This document shows positions 23,806 through 52,927 of a stretch of 64,000 nucleotides of DNA, one piece after another. The notes under the pieces were generated by a model. It was not told the origin of the DNA, did not search any database, and saw only the letters and a list, made by a program, of their open reading frames with translations. Location of the stretch: positions 682,001 through 746,000 of the forward strand of contig JAGFMI010000016.1 in assembly GCA_021030905.1 (NCBI GenBank), read 5' to 3'. This DNA comes from Pyrenula massariospora (lineage: Eukaryota; Ascomycota; Eurotiomycetes; Pyrenulales; Pyrenulaceae). The position numbers were made by a program, and so were the translations under genes. Position 1 is the stretch's first letter. Each line of letters begins with the position of its first letter.

Positions 23806-24744
23806 CTAGGTCCGATACGAGTCATCATTGGAATCCAGCCATCTCATGTAAGCAGACAACTCTTTCACCCCGTACAACGCTCCAGAGAAACGTTTCTCCC
23901 TTGTCACCTCGAATGTCTTGTTAACAGTCTTGGCTGATGGCATATTCAAATTTCCTGCGTTTCCCAGGGAGCAAGCCGACGCATGAGACTGCAAGTCCGT
24001 CGCACACAGCAGCTGGTACATCAGATACCAAGCAGCGCCAACCGATTCACCCGCTGTGATCACCCCATGGTTCCGAAGGAACAAGATATTCTTCTTGCCC
24101 AAGTCCTCGGCTAGGCTTTTCTGCTCTCCTCGATCGACCACGATGCCGTGGTAGTCATGATACGCGACTGGGCCGACCTGGTGGCTTGTTTGGGCCAGTT
24201 CGAGGAAACCTTGTTTGACCGACGACACGCCGGCAGCCGAAGGGTAATGACAGTGCATGATGCTTTGCAGATCTGGACGCGCACGATGAATGGCACTATG
24301 AATCACGAAGCCAGCATCGTTAATGCCGAATAGATCCTCTGTGACGCCAGCATTCTTGATCGAGCCATCGGCCCCGACTTTGATCAAGCTGCTTGCCGTT
24401 ATTTCGCCATATTTTAGTCCGAACGGGTTGATCAGAAAGGACTCGGTGCCATCTTCCTCATGCACTTTGGCCGTTAGATGATTGTAGATATTCTCGTTCC
24501 ATCCTTTCAGCTCGAAGAGTCGGTAGCAAGCTGCCAGCTCGATCCGAGTTTTCCCCTCATGCTCGCTGACCTGGTCTAGGATCGAGCGACTGAGCAGGCT
24601 GGAAACATTTTGGGTGTTGTAACGTTCATCGGGAGCATATGTCTTTGGCGAGAAAGAATGGGTTGATGCATAACGCCGCGAAGGCGACACTATCAATGAT
24701 GGTAAGACTTTTTCAACAGCTCGATTAAACAGTTCGCCATACAT
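23806..24744 (-). CDS. Class II aldolase/adducin-domain protein
   Basis: Intronless gene of 312 residues from ATG 24744. The N-terminal ~45 residues are rich in Arg/Ser/Thr with few acids and could be a mitochondrial targeting sequence. Residues ~63-265 are a class II aldolase/adducin head: the zinc ligands are plausibly H164 and H166 (SIMHCHYPS) and H226 (LFLRNHGVITAG), and NHLTAK with FLINPFGLKYGEI fit the phosphate-binding and strand elements. Bacterial relatives cleave sugar phosphates (fuculose- or ribulose-phosphate type). Fungal members of this length are mostly uncharacterised, so the substrate is unknown. It lies beside a Zn2Cys6 factor on the same strand. Its start is about 0.5 kb from the AT-rich block. 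Confidence 0.85.
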   Translation of the reverse strand: MYGELFNRAVEKVLPSLIVSPSRRYASTHSFSPKTYAPDERYNTQNVSSLLSRSILDQVSEHEGKTRIELAACYRLFELKGWNENIYNHLTAKVHEEDGTESFLINPFGLKYGEITASSLIKVGADGSIKNAGVTEDLFGINDAGFVIHSAIHRARPDLQSIMHCHYPSAAGVSSVKQGFLELAQTSHQVGPVAYHDYHGIVVDRGEQKSLAEDLGKKNILFLRNHGVITAGESVGAAWYLMYQLLCATDLQSHASACSLGNAGNLNMPSAKTVNKTFEVTREKRFSGALYGVKELSAYMRWLDSNDDSYRT

Positions 24745-25246
24745 AAACGGAGAGAAGATACCGCACTTCGGCGGAAAACGGTGAGAGCCGGCATAGAGTG
24801 CTATAAGTATTGACCAAAAATACTAATAGTGAGAATCAGACAGTACTAGCACGATTAATAAATTTTGTAGTAGGAAGCTTTTGCAATGGAGCCTTCGAGA
24901 AAGGCATAAGATCCGACATACTACTAATACTTATAAATTTTGTAGATACACGGTCAAACGGGTTCGTACGGATGCTTCGCACGAGATCTTCATTCATCCG
25001 GGAAATTGCCATTTGACACTGCGAACTATTGCTAGTACTAGTACGGTCTTCAAGTTGACAGGGCGAGCCTGCAGCAACCTAGGTGTATCCTAGGTCATCG
25101 CTCCGTGAATGTCTCGCACCACCAATATTCCCCTAGGACACGGGTTAGATCCTAGCAGCTGTGGATTTCGCTTCCAGGATGAGGGCAGACCCTCCTTTTG
25201 TATATAAAATCTATAATAGAGTATTAAAATAACACTTCTGTGCTCC
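24745..25246. other. Transition from gene-rich DNA to AT-rich repeat block
   Basis: Holds the 5' flank of the aldolase gene. A short motif with AATTTTGTAG occurs twice (near 24860 and 24937), set in low-GC sequence. No gene is recognised. Confidence 0.35.
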
Positions 25247-25970
25247 AAATAAAACATTCGGCAGCAGTTTGACATCTTGTCGACATCAAATCAAGAATTT
25301 AAGGACTTGACATTGTATCAGCCAGCTGCTGACTAATTGTAAGCAAAATGCTTAGTTAAGGTAATAATTAGTCAACAGCTAGTCCGTACAATTTCAGGCC
25401 CTTACGACAACAAAACCGTAGCTCGTAGGGCACAACTCTACTTGCACCGGGCGCTTAAAGTGCCTTTGATTTTTCAGTATTAATCCTGGATATGTAAAGT
25501 AGAAAAAATTAGTATATATCTATATATAGTAATTAATTATTAAACGCAGTAGTTTTTTAGAAATTAGTCAATTATCAGATTATATTTAAAGAGATTTTAA
25601 TTACTAAAGAAATATCTATACTAAAAACTTTATTTTTATAAAAATTACAAATTTCATATACAGATAAGTATTATTAATATATTTATATATTATCCATGAT
25701 CAATTGTAGGATTAAAAGCTTTATAAAAAATTATAACATTAATTACTTGATTTATTAGTTAGTTTTATAAATATGTATAGTAATTTTTTACTATATATAA
25801 AATTGTTTAGGGTTAATACTGAAAAAAACTTTAAAATTAAAACCTAAATTTGCCTCGCGCCACTCTGCGCCATCCTAGCTTAGAAATACACTGAAAAGGG
25901 TCTGCCTTTTTGCTGGCGTACTCTCTTAAGTTGGTGCCGACGAGGGATCAATCTCTTATCGACAATTTTG
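25247..25970. mobile_element. Foldback (palindromic) element FB1, split by a TIR1 insertion
   Basis: 25301-25342 and 25361-25402 are imperfect inverted arms around a short loop. The pairing resumes outward: 25247-25300 pairs with 25921-25970, after the TIR1 element is removed. The uninterrupted element would be ~208 bp and nearly all hairpin. Related, more AT-mutated copies lie near 27335-27513 and 30485-30660. Outer limits are approximate. Confidence 0.65.
25403..25920 (+). mobile_element. TIR1 non-autonomous DNA element, copy 1
   Basis: 518 bp bounded by TA on both sides. The left end TACGACAACAAAACCG and the reversed right end TACGCCAGCAAAAAGG are related inverted repeats. The element sits inside FB1; deleting it and one TA restores the FB1 palindrome, which fixes the boundaries and shows a TA target duplication as in Tc1/mariner-type elements. 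The interior is extremely AT-rich with no coding capacity, so this is a MITE-like element. Confidence 0.75.
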
Positions 25971-26117
25971 CCTAAATCCTTGAAGTTGTCTCAGGGCGCG
26001 CTAGGACCATCAAGAGAATGACTCTAGGCCAATCCTGCCAGTCAAGCCCTGGGGGTGTTTGAGCCGATTTGGGCGCTTAGGGCAGAAACAGGAGTTTTCC
26101 TGGCGGGAAAAGGATGG

Positions 26118-26644
26118 TACGTCAACAAAAAGGTAGACCCTTCCCAGCGCGCACAGGGCTGCACGGGGTAGCGCGGGGCGAGTTGAGCTTATAATCCTAG
26201 AGTCCTTCCCAGCGCTCGCCCTGAGCGCGCACAACAAAAAAAGTTGTTGAACACGCGCGGGGTTAATTAGCGAGTTCAACAACTAATGTCATAATTTTAA
26301 ATTTTTTATCATAAGGCCGTTTTTAGCTTATAGAAGTATAACTAATTATAGTTAACGAAATAACGCGCTAACAACGCCTACATATAAAATTTGCGGTTTA
26401 GAGCTATTTTTTAAAAAATAAAATTTTCAACATTACTAATATCCAGCGAATTAGAGCACATCCGAAGAGAATCCGATAATTATTTGATAGTTATCTGAAC
26501 GATAAAAGTTGCTGAACTCGCTAACTAGCTCTGCGCGCGTCCAGCAATGTTTTTTACTGTGCGCGCGCGCGGTGCTTCTCTGAGCGCGTTAGGCGTTCTA
26601 CATAAGTAGAGTTACGCCGCGCGGGCTGCGGATTTACTAACGTA
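26118..26644 (-). mobile_element. TIR2 non-autonomous DNA element, copy 1
   Basis: 527 bp, TA at both ends. Its left end TACGTCAACAAAAAGG matches the right end of TIR1, and its reversed right end matches the left end of TIR1 over ~45 ungapped bases. The interior is different from TIR1, with GC-rich GCGCGC-containing segments near both ends. A partial copy lies at ~27823-28147 and an end fragment at ~30786-30925. Confidence 0.65.
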
Positions 26645-27334
26645 GTTTATATATGTCAAGATCAGAAAAACTGTTGTTTTCATTCTGAAGATACTACAGG
26701 TCAGTATTGGCATCCTCAGGGCTTAATTGATGGAATTGGATCAAAATAAGACTCTGGCATATTCTAGCATATTTCGAAAAAGTTTACATCATATCCGAAA
26801 TGAAATGATAGTTGTATAGAACTAATTTTATAAATTTTCAGTAACTTATATACCAATCAAAGTTTTATTGATATGGATAGTGTTATTATATATTTATAAA
26901 TTAAGAATAGAATTTTACAAAATTATGATATTTTTAGGATCTAAGTAATTTTATTGATAAAAAATTGATCTGTTATCAAAATTGAGTTAAAAATTTAAAA
27001 TTTTAAAATTTTAAAATTATATAGACAAATTATTAATCAACTGTAGATTTAAAATATAATTTTTTGGTCTATAAGTTTGAATTTGGGGTTTATTAATGTA
27101 ATGTTAAGTTCTTCAACTATTGACTCAATATTGATAAAATATTTTAAATAGCTTTATATATAAAAAATTTTTATTAATAAACTAAACAGTGAATATTGTA
27201 ATTTTTAAATTTTTTCTATAATCTATTTTTAATTCATAATTATAATAACCTCTATATATAAAATTGATAATTTTTATAAAAATAAATTTTTTAATATAGA
27301 TACTTCTAAGATTAAGGTATTTTTGTTAACAGAT

Positions 27335-27513
27335 AGTTAACCTTTTATTAGTATTAGATTAAGAATTTAAAATTTTAATATTATACAGATAAGTTGTTGA
27401 CTAACTATAGATTTAAAATATATATTTTTATCTGTAAATAGTCTGTAGCCTATTTATATAATATTAAAATTTTAAACTTTTAATTTAATATTGATAAGAG
27501 GTTAAATTGCTAT
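27335..27513. mobile_element. Foldback element FB2
   Basis: AT-saturated palindrome related to FB1: the left part (AATTTTAATATTATACAGAT) and the reversed right part are near-identical. Limits are approximate. Confidence 0.5.
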
Positions 27514-27723
27514 CGAAAATCTTATTTAAAGTATGGAAATATTTAGCCAATTAGAATCTATCTAAATAATATTTAATAGCTTTCAAATTTATTAATTAGT
27601 TCTATATATATATAGCAATTTTTTTATTTAATATATTTAAAAACAATATTAAGAAGTTCAAGATACTTCAAATATTCTATATAAATAAAATTGCGTTGGA
27701 CAGGCTGCGGTTTTATTGACGTA
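27514..27723 (-). mobile_element. TIR1 partial copy, reversed
   Basis: The reversed end TACGTCAATAAAACCGCAGC is at 27723, and about 200 bp of interior resembles the left half of TIR1. The other half is not found; FB2 abuts it. Confidence 0.5.
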
Positions 27724-27822
27724 TTAAAATTATTCATTAATTTTTTTATACCGGTATATAGTAATTTTCTTATCCTGTATATCTAGAATCAATTTTAGAA
27801 AAGATTCTAAAATTAATTTTGT

Positions 27823-28147
27823 ACAGCCTTACATTAATAAAACTGTACAATATCTACGCTAACAATATTATTCTTTTAAAAATTGTAAATTTTATGTATA
27901 GGTTGTTGGCGTGTTTATACTTCAATCACAATCAGTTATTATAGCTATAAGCTAAAATGGCCTTTAAATAAAATTTTGAAAAACGTTGCTAAACTTGCTA
28001 AATAGCCCCGCGCGCGCACAGCCAAAAAGTTGCCGTGCATGCCTAGGGCTGCTCAGGGCTAGCGCTGGGGAGAGCCTTAGGATTAAATGCTAACTAACCT
28101 CGCGCTACCTCGCGCGCTCTGGGAAGGATTTGCTTCTTTTATGTACG
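27823..28147 (+). mobile_element. TIR2 partial copy
   Basis: Aligns with the reversed interior of the 26118-26644 copy (the shared block around TTATAGCTATAAGCTAAAA, then GCGCGC-rich sequence, then CTGGGAAGGA near the end). The left end is degraded. Confidence 0.5.
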
Positions 28148-28157
28148 CGATTATAGA

Positions 28158-28677
28158 TATGTCAATAAAACCGTCGCCCGCATAGTATAACTCTGCTTAT
28201 ACAGAGTGCCCAAAGCGCCCCTAATTTCTCAATACTAATCTTGATCATATGAAGTATAAAAATTTGCTGTATATACACAAACTTAATTAATAAATTTAAT
28301 AAATCAGATAATTATCGACTAATTATTAAATTATATTTATATAAATTCTAATTAGTTGAATATCTACATCAAAACTTTTATTTTTATAAAAGTAGCTTTA
28401 AATCATAAATTTCTATACAGATAATATCAATATATTTATATAGCTATAAACTAGAAATAGCTTTATAAAAAATTTTTAAAAATTAGTATAATATTAATTA
28501 TTTAACTTGTTAATTAATAGTAGTTCTACATTTCTAGTATCTTTTTCACTGTATATATATCAACATATTTAGAATTAACATTAAAAAAGATTTTAAAAAT
28601 TAAATTAAATTTACTCTATACTACCCGGCCCTATTTTATATATATTGAGAAAAATTTGTCTTTTTACTGATACTAGT
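28158..28677 (+). mobile_element. TIR1 non-autonomous DNA element, copy 2
   Basis: About 519 bp, collinear with copy 1. The left end TATGTCAATAAAACCG is clear. The right end (near TTTGTCTTTTTACTGATACT) has lost most of its C and G, consistent with RIP-type change. No coding capacity. Confidence 0.65.
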
Positions 28678-28775
28678 ATATATATTGAAATAAGTTTATA
28701 TTTTTACAAATATATATATTGGAATGAGTCTATGTTTTTATAGATATAATATTAATAATTTTTATATAAGGAAAA

Positions 28776-28909
28776 GCGGTATTCAAGTCTGATTTTATTA
28801 ATTTTAAACATTTTTGCAGCTTAAAATAGATTTTAAATTAAATTAATCGAATTGGATTAGTCTTAAAGTACTTTTTAGTATATATAAAAACGGTTATATC
28901 GGTTTTTAG
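28776..28909 (+). repeat. 134-bp repeat, AT-mutated copy A
   Basis: Ungapped match to 29358-29491. By eye all ~30 differences are transitions; in ~27 of them this copy carries A or T. Starts GCGGTATTCAAGTCTGA in both copies. Confidence 0.85.
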
Positions 28910-29357
28910 TAGATTACCATTTTTAAAAAAATTTATTATTTTTAACGGAACTAGAACAAGTAAAAATTAAAATTTATAAAATTAAAAATTTCGGAACGCG
29001 TTTTTAAACCAATAAATTATAATTAATTTTAAAAAAAATTAAAAGTTATAACCTGCCAAATAACAAATAAAATAATATAAAATAAAAATTATAAACACGA
29101 AGTAGTAGCAGGTCCGAATATAATTAAGTAAATTAATTTTTATTTTTAGTAGACATTTAGAAGTATAAAAGTATATAAAATTACGTAGTAATTAATACTG
29201 AATATTGAAATATAATATTAAAATATATTAATAAAATAAAAATGGGTTAGAATTCTTAATCGATTTAATCAATAATTTTATTTTTAATAAAGATAAATCG
29301 AAAAATTTATAGATTAATTTTAGCAGATTAAATAATAAAATAAAATCGCAATTTATA

Positions 29358-29491
29358 GCGGTATTCAAGTCTGATTTCATTGATTTTAAGTGCTTTCACA
29401 GCTTGAAATAGATTCTAAACTAAACTAACCGAATTGGGTTAGTCCCAAAGCGCTTCTTGGCACATACAGAAACGGTTGCATCGATTCCCAG
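29358..29491 (+). repeat. 134-bp repeat, less mutated copy B
   Basis: Partner of 28776-28909, retaining C and G at most of the sites where copy A has T or A. Parent element unknown. Confidence 0.85.
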
Positions 29492-29973
29492 CATTTTAAG
29501 GCGAGTTTCGCATTTCTATTAACAAAATATAAAATCCAATATTATTTATATAAACTATAAAATATTTATAATATTATCAATATAATATTAGTAAAATTTA
29601 TAAATTTTAATAATATATCAATTAAAACTTTTATAATAAAAATAGTTTTAAAGATATAGTTTAAATAAATAATACTATAATCTCTAAAAGAGTTTCTTTA
29701 AAATTCTATTAAGGACATTTTATATATGTTAACTAATATTCCTGGGCGCAATATATGCTTTCTCAGAACTAATCAAACTCTCTTAGAATTTTCTAAAAAA
29801 TGTGTTGAAAGAATGTTTCTATAGCTATTGATTGAGATATAATATTTTACTAGCTTGTGTATATAACATATTTATTTATAGAAAATTTTAAGAAACCTCT
29901 ATAAACTAATAATTTATTTTATAATAAATACTATTTAATGATTCGCCCTTTGTATATATTGATTTTTAAAAAT

Positions 29974-30483
29974 TATATTGGTAAACCCACAGCCTGTCCA
30001 ATATAACTCTATTTATATAAAATATCAAAATTTTTCATAGCTTTTTAAAGCTAATTTTAGATACACAGAGTAGAAATTTACTTTATATACAAAGATAATT
30101 AATAAATTCAATAATTTTTTTAAAAAAAGTAGCTAATTATTGAATTAAATTTTACTTAATTGTCAGGCCTGCCGAGGCCTGCCAAGCCTTGCCAAGACTT
30201 CCTGTAAAATCTTCATCCTCATGGCGTATATGAACATAGCTCTTCAAACTTTAAATCTTGAACCTATAAAATATAGAAATTAGCTCTAATCCTTTAGCTC
30301 TCTGTCTGTTGTCACCCACCTAGATCTCACATTAATTAAATAATTATACTAAAAACTTTATACTCTTTAAAAGTAACTTTAAATTATAAATTTCTTTTTA
30401 TATAAACTAAAAATAGTTTCAAATAATTTAAATAAAATTATTGATAAAAAACTTTTAGAACCAAGACGTTTTTGTTGACAGAC
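29974..30483 (+). mobile_element. TIR1 degraded copy carrying a solo LTR
   Basis: The left end near 29974 retains CAGCCTGTCCAA, shared with the 27514-27723 copy, and the interior follows TIR1. It is interrupted at 30161 by a 171-bp insertion and resumes with ATTATACTAAAAACTTTAT. The right end near 30483 is poorly preserved and internally shortened. Confidence 0.5.
30161..30331. mobile_element. Solo LTR with 5-bp target duplication
   Basis: 171 bp starting TGTCAGGCCTGCC and ending CTCACA (TGT...ACA termini), flanked by TTAAT at 30156-30160 and 30332-30336. It lies inside an AT-mutated TIR1 copy but keeps normal C/G content, so it arrived after most of the mutation. It contains a TATAAAATATAG promoter-like box near 30267. 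No internal retrotransposon region is present. Confidence 0.75.
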
Positions 30484-30484
30484 A

Positions 30485-30660
30485 CTTAATCTTTTATCGG
30501 TATTAAATTGAAAATTTAAGGTTTTAATATTATATAGATAAGTTGCTGATTAACTGTAAATTTAAAATATATATTTTTATCTATAAATAGTTTATAATCT
30601 ATCTATATAATATTAAATTCTTAAATTCTTAATTTAATATTAAGCTTCTCAACTCTTAAC
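30485..30660. mobile_element. Foldback element FB3
   Basis: AT-rich palindrome; arms share AATTTAAG(G/A)..TTAATATTATATAGATA, related to FB1 and FB2. Limits are approximate. Confidence 0.5.
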
Positions 30661-30785
30661 TCAATTTAAAATCAGTTTGATAGATAATAGAATACAATAT
30701 ATAGAAATACTTTTAGGGCTCAGACAAGATCTTCGGCAAGAGGTTGACACTTTATCGATATCAAGTTAAAAATTTAAAGCCTTAA

Positions 30786-30925
30786 TACGTCAATAAAAAG
30801 GCAGACCCTTCTTAGTGCGCGCGGGGTGGCGCGGGGCGAGTTGAGTTTGTAATCTTAAAATCTTTTTCAACGTTCGCTCTGGGTGTGCAGAGTAAAAAAA
30901 ATTGCTAAATACGCGCAGGGCTAGT
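30786..30925 (-). mobile_element. TIR2 end fragment
   Basis: Begins TACGTCAATAAAAAGG and follows the GC-rich end of the 26118-26644 copy for about 140 bp, then stops at another TACGTCA at 30926. Confidence 0.55.
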
Positions 30926-31063
30926 TACGTCAGGAAAACTGCAACGCCCCCTGGGCTTGAGCTCTTGCTGACAGCTATACGAGCACCCCGAGCAGTGCTG
31001 GGCATGTATAACAGAGGCTCTGGTCACCCTTGGGGGTAGCTATGTGACGCCCTGGGGTGCCAG

Positions 31064-31117
31064 TTGACACGATTAGCATAATTGACAAGATTAATACAAT
31101 TGACAGGATTAGCATAT
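31064..31117 (+). repeat. Minisatellite, three 18-bp units
   Basis: Three tandem units at 31064-31081, 31082-31099 and 31100-31117 of the form TTGACANGATTARYAYAW, with a few substitutions between units. It marks the right edge of the repeat block. Confidence 0.85.
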
Positions 31118-31701: not shown

Positions 31702-32367
31702 ATGATGGAACCGAGATCGGTGGCATTCAGCGAACCTTCTGTACCGACATTGTCCCCTAAAGGTCGTCCATGGGCGCTGTTATTCGGCATTCCTTTTGCT
31801 GTAGCCACTTCGTATTGCATTTTCGGCCCATGGATTGAAACGCTTGTCATCATTAGCCTAACTTGGATGTACAACGACCTACGCGGTGGTGACGACGAAT
31901 TCGTTCTCCGGAATGCTATCATCAGCATAGCATACGGTGCATATAACCATGGATCGGTAAGGGTTGCTGGTGGTCGGCACGCCACATTGGCCATCAGCAC
32001 TATGGGGCAAATGTGGATTTGTATGATCAGTTTGGTAATCTTCTCCACAATGCACATCCAAGATCTCAAGGACACCGCTGGAGATAGGTGTCGTGGTCGA
32101 AGGAGCGCCATGCTGGTCCTGGGTGACAAATTAGCTCGACGGACACTTGCGATACCAATTGCCTTCTGGTCCTTCATGTGTCCATGGTTCATCGGCCTGT
32201 ATCCGGGAATTGCAAGTCCTGTATACTTATTTTCTGTGGGTCTAGGACTCTATATCTCTTATAGAGTTTTGTGGCTCAAGGGAGAAGAGAAAGACGCAAC
32301 GAGCTGGAAGATGTGGGCAGCGTGGCTTGTCATACTCTATGCATCACCACTGGAGCCTCAGATATAA
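31702..32367 (+). CDS. UbiA-type prenyltransferase, N-terminally truncated
   Basis: 221 codons from ATG 31702. It aligns by eye with the middle and C-terminal two thirds of fungal UbiA-like integral membrane prenyltransferases. WMYNDLRGGD (residues ~56-65) lies in the central region and QDLKDTAGDRCRGR (~120-133) is the second Asp-rich, diphosphate/Mg-binding motif; hydrophobic segments alternate with both. The first Asp-rich motif (normally NxxxDxxxD, about 60 residues upstream) is not seen in any upstream frame, and family members usually exceed 280 residues. It sits 0.6 kb from the repeat block. It may be a pseudogene cut by the repeats, or a gene whose upstream exons I could not find. Substrate unknown. 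Confidence 0.65.
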   Translation: MMEPRSVAFSEPSVPTLSPKGRPWALLFGIPFAVATSYCIFGPWIETLVIISLTWMYNDLRGGDDEFVLRNAIISIAYGAYNHGSVRVAGGRHATLAISTMGQMWICMISLVIFSTMHIQDLKDTAGDRCRGRRSAMLVLGDKLARRTLAIPIAFWSFMCPWFIGLYPGIASPVYLFSVGLGLYISYRVLWLKGEEKDATSWKMWAAWLVILYASPLEPQI

Positions 32368-44841: not shown

Positions 44842-46007
44842 CGGAATACTACGGGGGCTCAATAGATTTGGTAAATTGAGTGGGAAAGAAATTGACAAAG
44901 TTGAGAGATTTGCAACGGCTCGTTCTGGTGGGAAGTAGATACGTTATGGGTAGCTACCTAGGTGGTGTCAAGATGTTCCGTAGGGTCAATTGCGAATTGG
45001 AGGGCCCGTGTATGTCGAAGGGGACGCGTTTCGCGTTCCGCGTTTCTTCGACGCGTTGAGAGGCTGCATTAGCCGGGAAAATCGGACCATTCACAATTTG
45101 GCTCTCAGAGCCCCCCTGGTGAATTCGTTTTCCCCAGACTTCCGCCCGCGCCTCCATGCTTTGACCATAAGAAAAATGCTGCATGTTTCTCTTCGACGAC
45201 TTCCTCTCCACCTGATGCATTACCACGTTGTGCACTCCTAGGCTACGGCAAGACGCCCAGCTCTGTGCGTGCCTAACGCCCAGTGTCTTTTTTTTGGAAG
45301 CTTTGAACGTGATACCTTCCCGGCAACAACACTTGTTCTCGGCTCCCTTGGTCAAGTACTACTTTCTATCTTATTGAAGGCGAGATTGGTATGAAATCAA
45401 CATTGGATAGGTCGGGAGCGTGCTTCCACCCACGACAGCCCAACAGCTCTTCCACCCTGCCAGGCCATGGGACGCCAAAACCAACATAGCGGCTTCTCAG
45501 AAGAATTGCCCCGTCAGACCAATGACACCCGTACTCCCATCGTGTCCTTACGAAGACCTCTGTCCGAGGCGATTACTCTTTGGCGATTGTTAATTGCCTG
45601 CCGATATTGGCTGGAGTGGCTTTATCGCACACCCCTGCAGCTACCCGCTAAGCGTCGATGCAGCCCCGGCGAGATAAGGGTGCCTCGACCACTCATGGCA
45701 ATCGATCCTTCGCCTTCACTCGTCGCAGACTCGACGCTTCATAGCCGCGCCATGATGCCATTTCCGCGGATCCTCCAGAATTGCATGACGCTTTTCCATG
45801 CATCTAGAAGTTTTCCCCAGTTCTCCACACCCATGTATGTATTACGGAAATATTTCGACTTGTGCAATACCCTCATCCCTGTTCTCAATCTCAGCTGCGA
45901 TTCAATGCCGTCTCTCATTGTGAGCTACCTCCATTCATTCCTGTACAATTACCTTCTCGTCGGAGGCCTTTATATGTCTCCAAGGGTTGCTTTGCCTTCA
46001 TCAAGCC
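44842..46007. promoter_or_regulatory. Divergent promoter region of MCM3 and niaD with GATA motifs
   Basis: 1.17 kb between divergent starts. HGATAR-type sites for AreA-like GATA factors occur at 45366-45371 (reverse), 45622-45627 (reverse) and 45672-45677 (AGATAA). At 45562-45569, GTCCGAGG differs by one base from the NirA consensus CTCCGHGG. A short upstream ORF starting ATG 45974 overlaps the niaD start. Function is inferred from fungal nitrate regulation. Confidence 0.5.
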
Positions 46008-48688
46008 ATGGAAGATGCCCTTAACAAGGGAGGCAGTCTTCCAAAAGTAGCACAGAAACATGAGACCTTACCACCAACACCGCCTCCTTCAGATGACAGC
46101 ACCTCGGACACGATCTCAAGTGAGGATCACCAATCAATCCCCCTACCACCAGTCATACGAATACCCGAATTAGTCTTAGATGTCGATAAAGCGACCCCCG
46201 ACAAACACGTGCCGCGAGACCCCAGGCTAATCCGATTGACTGGTGTACATCCTTTCAATGTCGAAGCCCCATTGTCGGCTCTGTACAATGAAGGATTTTT
46301 GACAAGTCCGGAGCTCTTTTATGTACGGAACCATGGTGCGGTGCCCGAAATTGATGATAAGAGTGTTCTCAATTGGGAGTTTTGCATTGAGGGGCTTGTC
46401 GAAGAACCCATGACCATCAGCCTCTCCCAATTGATATCTGGGTATGAACAAGTCACCTGCCCGATCACTTTGGTCTGCGCTGGCAATCGGAGGAAAGAAC
46501 AAAACGTAGTGCGTAAGAGCAAGGGATTCTCCTGGGGAGCTGCCGGTGTTTCGACCGCCCTCTTTACGGGTGTGATCATGGCCGAGGTTATTAAAAGGGC
46601 TAGGCCTAAGAAAAAAGCCAAGTTCGTCTGCATGGAAGGGGCGGATAAGCTTCCAAACGGCTATTATGGAACTTCAGTGAAACTCAATTGGGTGCTCGAT
46701 CCGAACAAAGGTTTCATGTTGGCTTACAAAATGAATGGAGAAATGTTACGGCCCGATCATGGCAAGCCCTTGAGAGCTGTCATTCCTGGACAGATTGGTG
46801 GCCGCAGCGTGAAATGGTTGAAGAAAATTATTTTGACCGACGCGCCAAGTGACAATTGGTACCATATCTATGATAATCGAGTCCTGCCAACGATGGTATC
46901 TCCTGAGGAAGCTGCTAATAACCCTAATTGGTGGATGGACGACCGATACGCCATCTATGACCTGAGTACGAATTCTGTGACCGTGTATCCAGCTCACGAG
47001 GAGCAATTGTGCCTTGTCGACAGCCTCCCAACGTATACAGCTCGGGGCTACGCGTATGCAGGCGGTGGTCGTAGAGTCACGAGAGTCGAGGTATCATTGG
47101 ACAAAGGACAAAGCTGGAGTCTCGCTAATATCGACTACGCCGAAGACCGATATCGCGAAATCGAACATGATCTTTATGGGGGCAAACTTGATATGTCATG
47201 GAGAGAGACATGCTTCTGCTGGTGTTTCTGGTCGCTTCCACTGGCAATGGGGGAGCTTCGTGTTGCCACAGACATTCTAGTCCGTGCAATGGATGAAAGC
47301 ATGAATATACAGCCTCGAGATATGTATTGGAGCGTGCTCGGTATGATGAACAATCCTTGGTTCCGCGTTACCATCAGTCATGAAGGCGACTATCTCCGCT
47401 TTGAGCACCCGACTCAGCCTGCATTACTACCTGGTGGCTGGATGGAACGGGTGAAGAAGGCAGGAGGCAACCTCGCTAACGGCTACTGGGGTGAGAAGAT
47501 CACCGGGGATGAAGCCCTTCAACCCGCTGCCCAAATAGCAAATGAGGTGCCTATGGTAAAGGAACATTTAAATAATCCCATCAGTATTGATGAGCTGCGT
47601 AAGCACGATGGCAAGGAGGAGCCGTGGTTTGTTGTTAATGGCGAGGTCTATGATGGTACCGCATTCCTCAAGGAGCATCCAGGTGGGGCGCAAAGCATCA
47701 TTTCTGCAGCGGGACTTGATAGTTCTGATGAATTCATGGCAATACGTAAGTTCTCCAATGCCGCCGCGCAGCAGCTAATTGATTTGCAACAGACAGCGAG
47801 ACAGCAAAAGCGATGATGCCAGGCTATCATATTGGTTCTCTTACGGATGCGGCAAGGACGGCGCTCAGCCAAGGCGAACCTGAAGACAGCTTACCCGCAG
47901 AAGAGAGACCGACATTCTTACAGCCGAAATCATGGTGCAAGGCGACCCTTACGGGCAAGGAAAGCGTATCTTGGGACACTCGAATCTTCACATTCCAATT
48001 AGATCATAGCTCACAGGAGCTTGGTCTACCAGTCGGTCAACATCTGATGGTCCGACTGCGAGATCCCGTGACCCGAGAGGCCATTATACGGAGCTATACC
48101 CCTATTTCGGAAATCAGTGATAAGGGAATCATGCGCATGCTTGTTAAAATTTACTTTGACCGCGACAGTCAGAAAGGAGGTAGGATGTCGCAGGCAATGG
48201 ACGCTCTGCCACTCGGACACTTTGTCGATTTCAAGGGACCGATTGGCAAATTCACTTATCAAGGACATGGAAGATGTTGCATCAACGAGCGGACAAAGAC
48301 AGTCAAGTCGTTCACGATGATCTGCGGAGGGAGCGGAATTACGCCGATCTATCAGGTGTTCAGAGCCATTATACGCGATGCGGCCGATGGCACAAGGTGT
48401 GTCATCCTGAATGGAAACCGACTGTTCGAGGATATACTTTGTAAGAAGGATTTGGATGCGTTGGCTCACGGTAATGAGCATCGATGCAAGCTTCTCTACA
48501 CCCTGACTCAAGCGGGGGACGAGTGGCAGGGCCTCCGAGGACGAATTGGCAGCAGGCTTGTCCAAGAGCACTGCAAGCCGGATCCTGAGTCGCTCGTTCT
48601 GATCTGTGGCCCTGAGGCTCTGGAGAAGAGTATGCATGGGATTTTGCTGGAGCAGGGATGGAGTGATGAGCAGTTGATATTCTTTTGA
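46008..48688 (+). CDS. niaD: Nitrate reductase [NAD(P)H]
   Basis: Model: 46008-47745 and 47793-48688, 877 residues. ATG 46008 has a good context (AAGCCATGG). The intron is 47 nt (GTAAGT, GCTAATT, ACAG) and joins two frames. Order: disordered acidic N terminus; sulfite-oxidase-type molybdopterin domain with Mo-ligand Cys157 (TLVCAGNRR) and dimerisation domain (~60-470); cytochrome b5 domain with HPGG (His557) and second heme ligand His580; FAD domain with RSYTPIS; NAD(P)H domain with GGSGITPIYQ and CGPEALE, ending at aromatic LIFF. It reduces nitrate to nitrite in the cytosol and is followed in tandem by niiA. Expression is expected to need nitrate induction and release from ammonium repression; GATA motifs lie upstream. 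Confidence 0.96.
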
Positions 48689-49443
48689 AGCGGCATTGAA
48701 TGATTGCATGGCGTGGTTAGCATGTTTCACGGCGCGGCGTTTTGGCTGCGGTCGGATGGAGGATCTGGGTCCATTGAGAGGCAAGAGTCTTGCATCCGTT
48801 ATAGGGGAAAATGTCTGTTGAGAGGCAAAAGATTCTTTGCATCCGTTTAAGGGGAGGCAGCATGTCTGTAACTGTATCACGTTGACATCGGCAGTACCGG
48901 AATCCAAGCCCGCCAACTCCGGGTCTTGGCGCGTCTTATCGGCTTCTCTCGCCGACCAGTCAGAAAAGTCGCTGGCATTTCAAAGATTACCAAAATTACC
49001 TTACTCCCATCCTTATCAATTCGCTCTCGACCGTGGAGAAAGCCTGTCCGCGTTCCTGACTGTGAACTCCTCGGGGTACACGCTCCCCTGTCCCGCTGTC
49101 GTTCCCGGCTTGAGCCATTGGCCTCACTCCACAATGACACCCTTCCGGGGAGCCAGGTGCTCAACCTTGTGAGAGAGAGTCTGGCCGCTTTTGATAAGCT
49201 TGACGTGCTTTGCATGCCCACCATTGTCGTACCCTTCACTTGCCTGACCGCGGAATTACCAGCTGATTTGCCAGACATGGTCAATGATCTTGTGGACCTG
49301 ATTGCTCTATTTTGTTTTCCTCTGCGCAGTTTCCCATATCTTTCTGTGGTTCTTTAACTTGGAGCCGCAATGTGCGCGTCTTGCATAAGCTCTCGTTTCC
49401 CACTGTAGCGTTCCATATGTCTTGGGCTAACTCATCACCGGGG
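48689..49443 (+). promoter_or_regulatory. niaD-niiA intergenic region with GATA motifs
   Basis: 755 bp holding the niaD 3' end and niiA promoter. HGATAR-type sites: 48936-48941 (reverse), 49013-49018 (reverse) and 49193-49198 (TGATAA). No perfect NirA consensus (CTCCGHGG) was found by eye. Open frames here are without recognisable content. Confidence 0.55.
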
Positions 49444-52400
49444 ATGGCCATCTCCCGCACCCCTCCCAATACAAGTCAGGAAACCAAGGTCGTGGATAAT
49501 GAAACTCAAAGTGGGAGAAAAAGGGTGGTGGTCGTGGGATTGGGTATGGTCGGAATCGCCTTCATGTGAGTACTGACTGCTCGAAGCTAGGTTGATATGG
49601 CGGATCTTGACGGGTTGTACTACACAGCGAGAAGCTACTGAAATTAGATATAAATCGCCGGGAATACGACGTGACGGTGATTGGAGAGGAGGCGCACGTT
49701 GCTTATAACCGGGTTGGATTGACCAGCTTTTTCCAGCACCGGAACGTGGAAAATCTATATCTAAACCCGAAGGAATGGGTCTGTACTTTGTTGATTTGCC
49801 GGAACTTTCCAAATGACTGACGGCTGACTCTGTGTGCTAGTATTCGAGCGCGCCGGAAGGCTCCTTGAGCTACCATTTGAACACTAAGGTCTCAGAGATT
49901 GACCCCGACGGGAAGCTCGTTAAGACATCAAGCGGTGATACTGTTCACTACGATACTCTCGTGCTTGCCACAGGTTCTGATGCCGTTCTCCCACGACACA
50001 CGCCAGGTCATGACGCTCAAGGTGTTTTCGTCTACCGCACGATAGAAGACCTACAGAAATTAATTGAATTCGCGTCGACAGTCAAAGGTACCGAGGGCTG
50101 CGTCGTTGGTGGAGGATTGCTTGGTCTTGAGGCTGCAAAAGCGATGATGGATCTTGAAGATTTCGCAAAAGTTCATCTGATAGAGCGCAATCGGTGGGTC
50201 TTGTCCAGGCAACTTGATGGAGATGCTGGGGGCATGGTTGTGGACTTAGTTCGGAATCTTGGCCTTGATGTTATGCTCAGCAAAAGAGTTGGGAAGATCG
50301 AGGTTGACGATTCTAACAGCGTGAAGGGTGTAGTCTTCGAAGACGGCGAACACATGGACTGCTCGTGTCTAATGTTCGCCATTGGCATCAAAGCACGTGA
50401 CGAGCTTGCCCGACAAGCTGGAATAAAATGTGCAGATCGAGGGGGAGGAATTGTGGTACACCCCGACCTACAAACGAGCCATCCAGATATTTATGCAATT
50501 GGCGAATGTGCAAGTTGGGAAAACCAAACGTTTGGATTGATTGCTCCTGGAATTGAGATGGCTGACGTACTCGCTTTCAATCTAACGCAGGCTAAAGTAC
50601 ACTCTATGCGCACATTTAAAAGACCTGATCTGAGCACTAAATTGAAACTGCTTGGGGTGGAGGTTGCTAGCTTTGGTGATTTCTTCGCGGACCGGGATGG
50701 CCCAAAGGAACTTCCTACTAGGCGTCATGGAGGCAAGAAAGAAGGGACTCTCAAGAGTAAGGATCGCATGCAATCTATCACCAACGGGCCTCCACCTCCA
50801 CCTGTGAAAGCTCTGAGTTACAAAGATCCCTTTGAAGCAGTCTACAAAAAATACTTGTTCACTCTGGACGGCAAGTACCTTCTAGGGGGGATGATGATCG
50901 GGGACACTAAAGACTATGTCAAGCTTGTCCCAATAGTCAAGAATCAGAAGCCACTTGAAGTCCCTCCATCACAATTCATCCTAGGAACCAGTAAAGAGGG
51001 CGAAGACGACGCGGACGATCTCACAGATGACACTCAGATTTGTTCATGTCACAATGTAACCAAAGGAGACCTTGTCAAAGTCGTGAAGGATGGCACTGCA
51101 AAATCAATTGGGGATGCCAAATCCTGCACAAAGGCTGGAACTGGCTGCGGCGGTTGCATGCCGCTTGTGCAAAGCATTTTCAACAAGACCATGAAAGAAA
51201 TGGGCAATGAAGTCCTCAACCACCTCTGCCCACACTTCGAATACTCCAGGGCGGATCTATATCACATTATCCATGTCAAAAAATTGAAGGAATTTAGTGA
51301 AGTCATGGCCGAAGCAGGCAAAAACAAACAATTTCTCGGTTGCGAGGTCTGCAAACCAGCAATTGCTTCAATTCTTGCTGGCCTATATAATCGCCATGTC
51401 ATGTCTTCACAGCTCCATGGCCTACAGGATACAAATGACAAATACCTTGCCAACATTCAGAGGAATGGAACCTTCAGTGTTATTCCTCGAGTTGCAGGCG
51501 GTGAAATCACTGCAGAAAAGCTCATCGCAATTGGGACGGTCGCTAAAAGGTATGGCCTCTACTGCAAGATAACAGGCGGTCAAAGGATCGACATGTTTGG
51601 AGCCAAAAAGCAGGATCTTGTCTCAATATGGACTGAACTTGTCAATGCAGGCATGGAATCTGGTCACGCGTACGCCAAGTCCCTTCGCACGGTGAAATCC
51701 TGCGTCGGAACCACATGGTGTCGGTTTGGGATTGGCGATAGTGTCGGTCTTGCAATCCGACTCGAGGAGCGTTACAAGTCGATCCGAGCTCCGCACAAAA
51801 TCAAAGGCGGAGTTAGTGGCTGCGTCCGCGAGTGTGCTGAAGCTCAGAACAAGGATTTTGGATGCATTGCGACTGAAAAGGGGTTCAACATATTTGTTGG
51901 TGGTAACGGCGGTGCAAAGCCGCGACACTCGGAACTCCTCGCCAGAGATGTACCACCAGACGACGTCATCCCGATTCTTGATCGTTATCTGATGTTTTAT
52001 ATCCGGACTGCAGACAGGCTTCAACGGACGGCACGGTGGGTTGAGCAATTGCCGGGCGGGATCAAATACCTCCAAGAAGTTGTCTTGCAAGATCGAATCG
52101 GGATCTGCGCTGAGCTTGAAAAGCAAATGCAGGAGCTTGTGGGGACGTACTACTGCGAGTGGACTGAAGTGATCAATTCACCCGAGAAGAGGAAAGCCTT
52201 CCAGCAATTTGGAAACACGGCAGACACTATCGAACCGGCCATCGAGAAGGTGACTGAGAGAGGTCAGTCTCGCCCAACCTACTGGGCCAAAGAATCCGCA
52301 ACCAATGACTTCAAGGGCACCAAGTGGTCCAACCTCACATGGCAGCCAGTGATCGAAGGTAGTAAATTCCCCGACCTACCGTCCGGCTCTTCGTATGTTA

Positions 52401-52927
52401 TAAAGAGAGGCGACACGCAGCTAGCAATCTTCAAGATCCGCGGCAGATTCTACGCCAGCCAGCAGATGTGCCCCCACAAGCGCGCCTTTGCGTTGAGCGA
52501 CGGCCTGATCGGCGAAGACGCTTCGCCCCCGACGGCGGAGAAGGACTGCGAGGACAGCAAACTTTGGGTCTCTTGTCCGTTCCACAAGCGGAACTTCCAG
52601 CTCAATGGTGGCGCGGCTGGCGAAGGGAGCGCAGGGTCGTGCACCAACGATGCGAGCGTCAGTGTGGCGACTTTTCCGGCGGAAGAGAGGGATGACGGGT
52701 GGGTGTATCTGAAGCTTCCGCCGGTGGAGGAGCTCGACGCTGCGCTAGGGACATCGAAATGGGTGGTGAAGAAGGCGGAGAGTCAGGATCCGTTTGCTAC
52801 TCTTGATAAGCAATTAGGTCTCAAGAAGGGATTGAGGAGTACGAAAATAGGGGCGGTTCCTGGGACGGGGGCGGAGATGGCAGGGAGACCTGTCTCGGTC
52901 ACCGCGGAGAAGAGAATTGACTGGTAG
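49444..52927 (+). CDS. niiA: Nitrite reductase [NAD(P)H], siroheme type
   Basis: Model: 49444-49565, 49628-49778, 49841-52927, 1119 residues. Both introns are 62 nt; splicing gives [31 protein letters not shown] 49444 (GGGGATGGC) is preferred over ATG 49417, which adds nine residues. Order: FAD/NAD(P)H pyridine-nucleotide reductase domain (GLGMVG; second [10 protein letters not shown]); BFD-like [2Fe-2S] motif with C492, C494, C527 and C530; ferredoxin-like halves; siroheme/[4Fe-4S] signature C712-x5-C718 and C752-x3-C756; C-terminal Rieske-type domain with CPH and CPFH. It reduces nitrite to ammonium with six electrons. It follows niaD on the same strand. Confidence 0.96.

Follow-up and report, generated by a model that had tools for sequence, protein, structure and literature searches.

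A 514-bp element, here called A, splits the right arm of an imperfect palindromic foldback in the repeat-rich, 64,000-nucleotide stretch of Pyrenula massariospora DNA that we analyzed (the window; C7:682001-746000). The nesting is real: the edges of A, the TA on either side of it, dispersed relatives of both families and foldback copies that carry no insert are all observed, and the copies lacking A at this site confirm the first-pass annotation, which had placed an element named TIR1 (our A) inside a foldback. The genome comprises 37.8 Mb in 33 contigs. We are highly confident in a reading in which a foldback of ~235 bp was present first, the 514-bp A then entered a TA in its right arm, presumably with the help of a transposase supplied in trans, and C-to-T decay would have followed. 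Nested MITEs are a well-known phenomenon, and A in its foldback is a textbook nesting of one short transposon in another, well supported and ordinary in kind. The arrangement provides a clean marker of relative age and establishes termini and target duplication for two short families too decayed to be defined from single copies; its use lies chiefly in annotating them.

Table 1. Features of the nested insertion and its relatives, in positions of the window
Feature	Positions	Strand	Basis
Element A, inserted; non-autonomous, MITE-like, short inverted ends, 514 bp	25405..25918	+	end comparison, family alignment, cut scan
Left TA of the target duplication	25403..25404	.	sequence, cut scan
Right TA of the target duplication	25919..25920	.	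sequence, TA count at family ends
Foldback left arm, loop and first portion of right arm; left end inferred from other copies	25235..25404	.	inverted repeat, foldback alignments
Rest of foldback right arm; its right end placed by comparison with other copies	25921..25985	.	foldback alignments, cut scan, control pieces
Element B, related to A and bounded by TA on both sides, outside foldbacks	26118..26644	-	search, alignment
Decayed foldback copy, no insert at the site of A	27302..27543	.	alignment, cut scan
Element C, closer to A (67% over 468 columns) than any other relative in the window; eroded right end	28158..28676	+	search, alignment
Element D, single family end beside a foldback arm (~30700-30785); other end not located	30786..30927	+	flank test, end search

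Foldback copies without element A

The foldback family consists of dispersed copies of ~235-255 bp that are a long inverted repeat over most of their length and end in CTTCT...AGAAG. Searching with the left part of the window foldback returned copies on C33 and C29 in addition to the window, and further queries added C32 and C1, then C30, C19, C27, C9 and C22, bringing full or partial copies to ten contigs. The palindrome was first placed at 25247-25970, but the other copies indicate a slightly longer element, ~25235-25985. Judged by eye, TA stands at both ends of four of six foldbacks (C30, C9, C33 and window 27302), and the window copy and C32 lack such a pair. At C1:888199-888679, one foldback copy sits within the loop of another with TA on each side, which fits TA as the target of the foldback itself.

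The search for unoccupied copies that the first-pass annotation had proposed succeeded at C33, C32, C30, C9 and window 27302. Once A and one TA are taken out, the joined window foldback aligns without a break through the junction with the copies on C32 (68% over 261 columns), C30 (71% over 215) and C9 (60% over 263), as well as with window 27302-27543 (62% over 243); against C33 it aligns in reverse orientation, placing the equivalent site on the opposite arm. The edges claimed for the insertion were then recovered by a free scan in which any cut was allowed between 25225-25480 and 25840-26000, with ~41,000 cuts tried. The best cut fell at the edges of A in six of eight comparisons (five of six loci), with the last kept base at 25404-25408 and the first at 25919-25924. 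One exception was C33 in the forward orientation (25399 to 25948), a copy that lacks ~25-30 bases of the right arm; the other was C1 (25403 or 25404 to 25840 or 25841), where inspection traced the deviation to a foldback nested in a foldback. When exactly 516 bases are removed, the score falls 1-5 points short of the best cut, owing to two bases next to the right TA at which the window departs from the unoccupied copies. As a control, the true right half was compared with 1671 other pieces and outscored every one of them at C33, C32, C30 and C9, whereas at window 27302 60 of the 1671 did equally well or better.

Taken together, foldbacks without A at the site and dispersed relatives of A with TA-flanked ends support the age order originally proposed, in which the foldback is the older element and A the younger.

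The palindrome itself is a less decisive witness. Self-complementarity had been expected to improve on removal of A, and by arm alignment it does, with a score of +22 when A and one TA are removed and 0 when A is left in place; 9 of 1671 70-nt pieces taken elsewhere in the window also gained 22 or more. By minimum-energy folding the improvement disappears, as the true join reached -32.0, while the 308 other pieces averaged -31.1 and 113 were as low or lower, and folding with and without A therefore does not discriminate and fails as proof of the join. Relative to shuffles, the joined foldback has a z of -3.3, as does its left part alone; an inverted repeat pairs 25300-25338 with 25366-25404 in this copy, and its outer arms have diverged. 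With folding non-discriminating and nine pieces giving an equal or greater arm gain, the palindrome argument by itself is moderate. The same two results would suit a palindrome that arose by chance in decayed AT-rich DNA, with A merely adjoining it, yet this account is contradicted by the foldback's relatives. C32 and C30 fold far better than their shuffles (z of -11.6 and -12.7; only -1.4 for C33) and align with the joined window sequence over 206-261 columns at 68-71%. We give the chance account almost no credence.

Relatives, ends and further junctions of element A

A genome search with A returned A itself and three relatives (C7:710163, C30:595145 and C9:12849), while searches with B and with the C1 copy returned at least 36 and at least 38 matching pieces, respectively. 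We aligned seven copies cut at the end motifs, namely A, B and C from the window, C1:886286, C30:590896, C30:595842 and C33:1403390. These copies, of 444-527 bp with the TAs included, align along their length at pairwise identities of 54-82%, and A is 56-69% identical to the other six. BLAST at E 1e-4 gives no match between A and B, which are linked through C, C30:590896 and their common ends. Other boundaries in further copies would have spoken against the limits set for TIR1; none of the seven has them, two (C and the C33 copy) having eroded ends. A literature search by the A-family end strings found no name for this family, and none was found for the foldback family.

The two termini of the family diverge past the first dozen bases, one reading approximately CGTCAGTAAATCCGCAGCCCGC and the other CGTCAGCAAAAAGGCAGACCCTT. 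Its inverted repeats are short in A, where 11 of 16 terminal bases agree (2 of 2000 shuffles were as good), and CGTCAG stands at both ends of C1:886286, C30:590896 and C30:595842. A genome-wide pattern search for family ends gave 35 matches, compared with 3 for the reversed pattern. The TA target duplication claimed for A, with TA on both sides, recurs in other family members: when ends were collected from the window and ten fetched loci with the TA left out of the pattern and at most 4 mismatches, TA preceded 16 of the 23 ends, against a TA background of 8.1% in the same DNA, and was absent from the remaining 7. The left end of A was too mismatched for inclusion in this count.

Foldbacks adjoin other members of A's family too. 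We scored the flanks of 37 candidate ends, admitted with up to 7 mismatches and many of them weak, against 60 shuffles each. Three had a foldback flank above all 60 shuffles: the right end of A, C33:1403892 (122 versus a best shuffle of 38) and window 30786 (56 versus 36); we claim no enrichment from this proportion. A second case of nesting is seen at C33:1403389-1404099, where a member of the family occupies a foldback's left tip. Adjoining at three loci is what a single composite element made of foldback and A would also produce, with uninterrupted foldbacks arising by loss of A, but the three junctions lie at differing foldback positions and so look like separate events. Moreover, the other 34 of the 37 ends, weak matches included, have no foldback flank above shuffles, and five loci carry foldbacks without A at the same site, which makes a composite origin very improbable. 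Under the nested-insertion reading, three family members that each adjoin a foldback at another position raise the idea that A's family prefers TA sites in cruciform-extruding palindromes, with foldbacks serving as landing pads, a preference that we consider doubtful.

Several further observations concern these sequences and their surroundings. A 1012-bp stretch at C6:740279-741290 has the same (right) A-family end on both sides and is flanked by an imperfect direct repeat of ~36 bases, judged by eye. A G+C-rich sequence at window 30926-31070 begins like a family end (TACGTCAGGAAAACTGCAACGCCC) and continues differently; a similar start occurs at C30:593446, and the sequence possibly represents another short element family. 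Several relics of the foldbacks and of A's family lie in an AT-rich island at 26751-30780; its G+C is 14-28% in 12 of the 13 250-base steps counted from 26751 and 21% over 28681-30780. The island lies between an aldolase-II-like ORF (23806-24744) and a UbiA-like ORF (31702-32367). An ORF neighbouring the locus carries Fungal_trans, a fungus-specific transcription factor domain, and farther along, at 45987-52927, ORFs whose domains are nitrate-reductase-like (Mo-co, cytochrome b5) or nitrite-reductase-like lie close together, as in a nitrate assimilation cluster.

Decay of element A

The core of A has 15% G+C. Relative to the majority of four less decayed copies, which are themselves decayed, 99 of A's 150 differences are C-to-T or G-to-A changes, and 18 run the opposite way. 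Sorted by context, the changed C positions in A amount to 10 of 20 in CA, 13 of 25 in CC, 41 of 66 in CG and 16 of 39 in CT, and these counts against the four reference copies reveal no CpA preference. Such a preference is typical of RIP in Neurospora. CpG was the most affected context in A (25405-25918) and in element C (28158-28676) and the least affected in C30:590896.

The RIP indices of A are 1.22 for TpA/ApT and 0.83 for (CpA+TpG)/(ApC+GpT), both beyond the reference values of 0.89 and 1.03 given in PMC4188875, and A combines a C-to-T bias with RIP-range indices. For the foldback without A, G+C is 39% and the indices are 0.94 and 1.26, of which only the first passes. PMC4188875 and PMC3441728 both give 400 bp as the repeat length above which RIP acts; A exceeds that length and the foldback falls below it, and the length rule would fit the difference in G+C and indices between them. 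We call the decay of A RIP-like, a description that stops short of proof of RIP. Once inserted, A would have undergone C-to-T mutation of a RIP or methylation-decay type and would now be a fossil.

Class of element A and comparison with known systems

The reading that suits A best is that of a non-autonomous, MITE-like element: it is short, carries no transposase (no ORF of at least 150 aa is listed in it), and has dispersed copies with common ends, a TA duplication and inverted ends. The TA duplication and the dispersed non-coding copies suggest that A moved by cut-and-paste through a transposase provided in trans, which would have inserted it at the right-arm TA of a pre-existing foldback and duplicated that TA. 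The mobilizing enzyme was probably of the Tc1/mariner (Fot1-like) type, as the family's use of TA (16 of 23 ends) is that expected of this class; membership of A in the class is likely, though not proved. In genome searches for transposase domains, DDE_1 gave three matches, each of them with stops. DDE_3 likewise gave three, of which one was over the cut-off and had a stop, so that all four matches over the cut-off contain stops. The DDE_1 and DDE_3 matches lie far from the family ends listed by the genome pattern search. At the four of six DDE places that were fetched we found no convincing A-family ends, which decay could hide; the only end-like sites there were weak (6 and 7 mismatches), both at one of the four.

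That no transposase with A-family ends was found at those places, together with short inverted ends and termini that are unlike past their first dozen bases, would also accord with a nested insertion made by an enzyme outside Tc1/mariner, for which TA is merely the core of its target. We judge this unlikely, since the repeated target is TA only, and since TA followed by the terminal CGT yields ACGT, with which most fungal Tc1/mariner elements begin (PMC4188875), as do DAHLIAE1/2 of Verticillium (PMC3441728); in A's family the motif is complete only with the target's own A included. PMC4188875 gives the ACGT start for nearly all Sclerotinia Tc1/mariner families, pogo excepted.

Among known systems, the foldback here shares with foldbacks and palindromic MITEs in general a near-total inverted repeat, dispersal and, in several copies, TA at both ends; it differs in measuring only ~235-255 bp and in having no parent transposon identified. 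Vader, Tan1, Fot1, Guest and mimp are candidate leads among named elements. DAHLIAE1 and DAHLIAE2 of Verticillium dahliae resemble A's family in their 2-bp target duplication and ACGT start, but as described in PMC3441728 they are ~1.9 kb long, with a DDE_1 transposase and TIRs of 41-62 bp that contain internal direct repeats, none of which is seen in A. The Tc1/mariner MITEs of Sclerotinia sclerotiorum have inverted ends of 44-70 bp in some table rows of PMC4188875, and those of A are far shorter and less symmetric; no autonomous parent was found for A's family, which also shows strong C-to-T decay, a feature not reported there for the Sclerotinia elements. In size (481-813 nt), non-coding character, TA target and ACGT start, the six Sclerotinia MITEs described there and A are alike.
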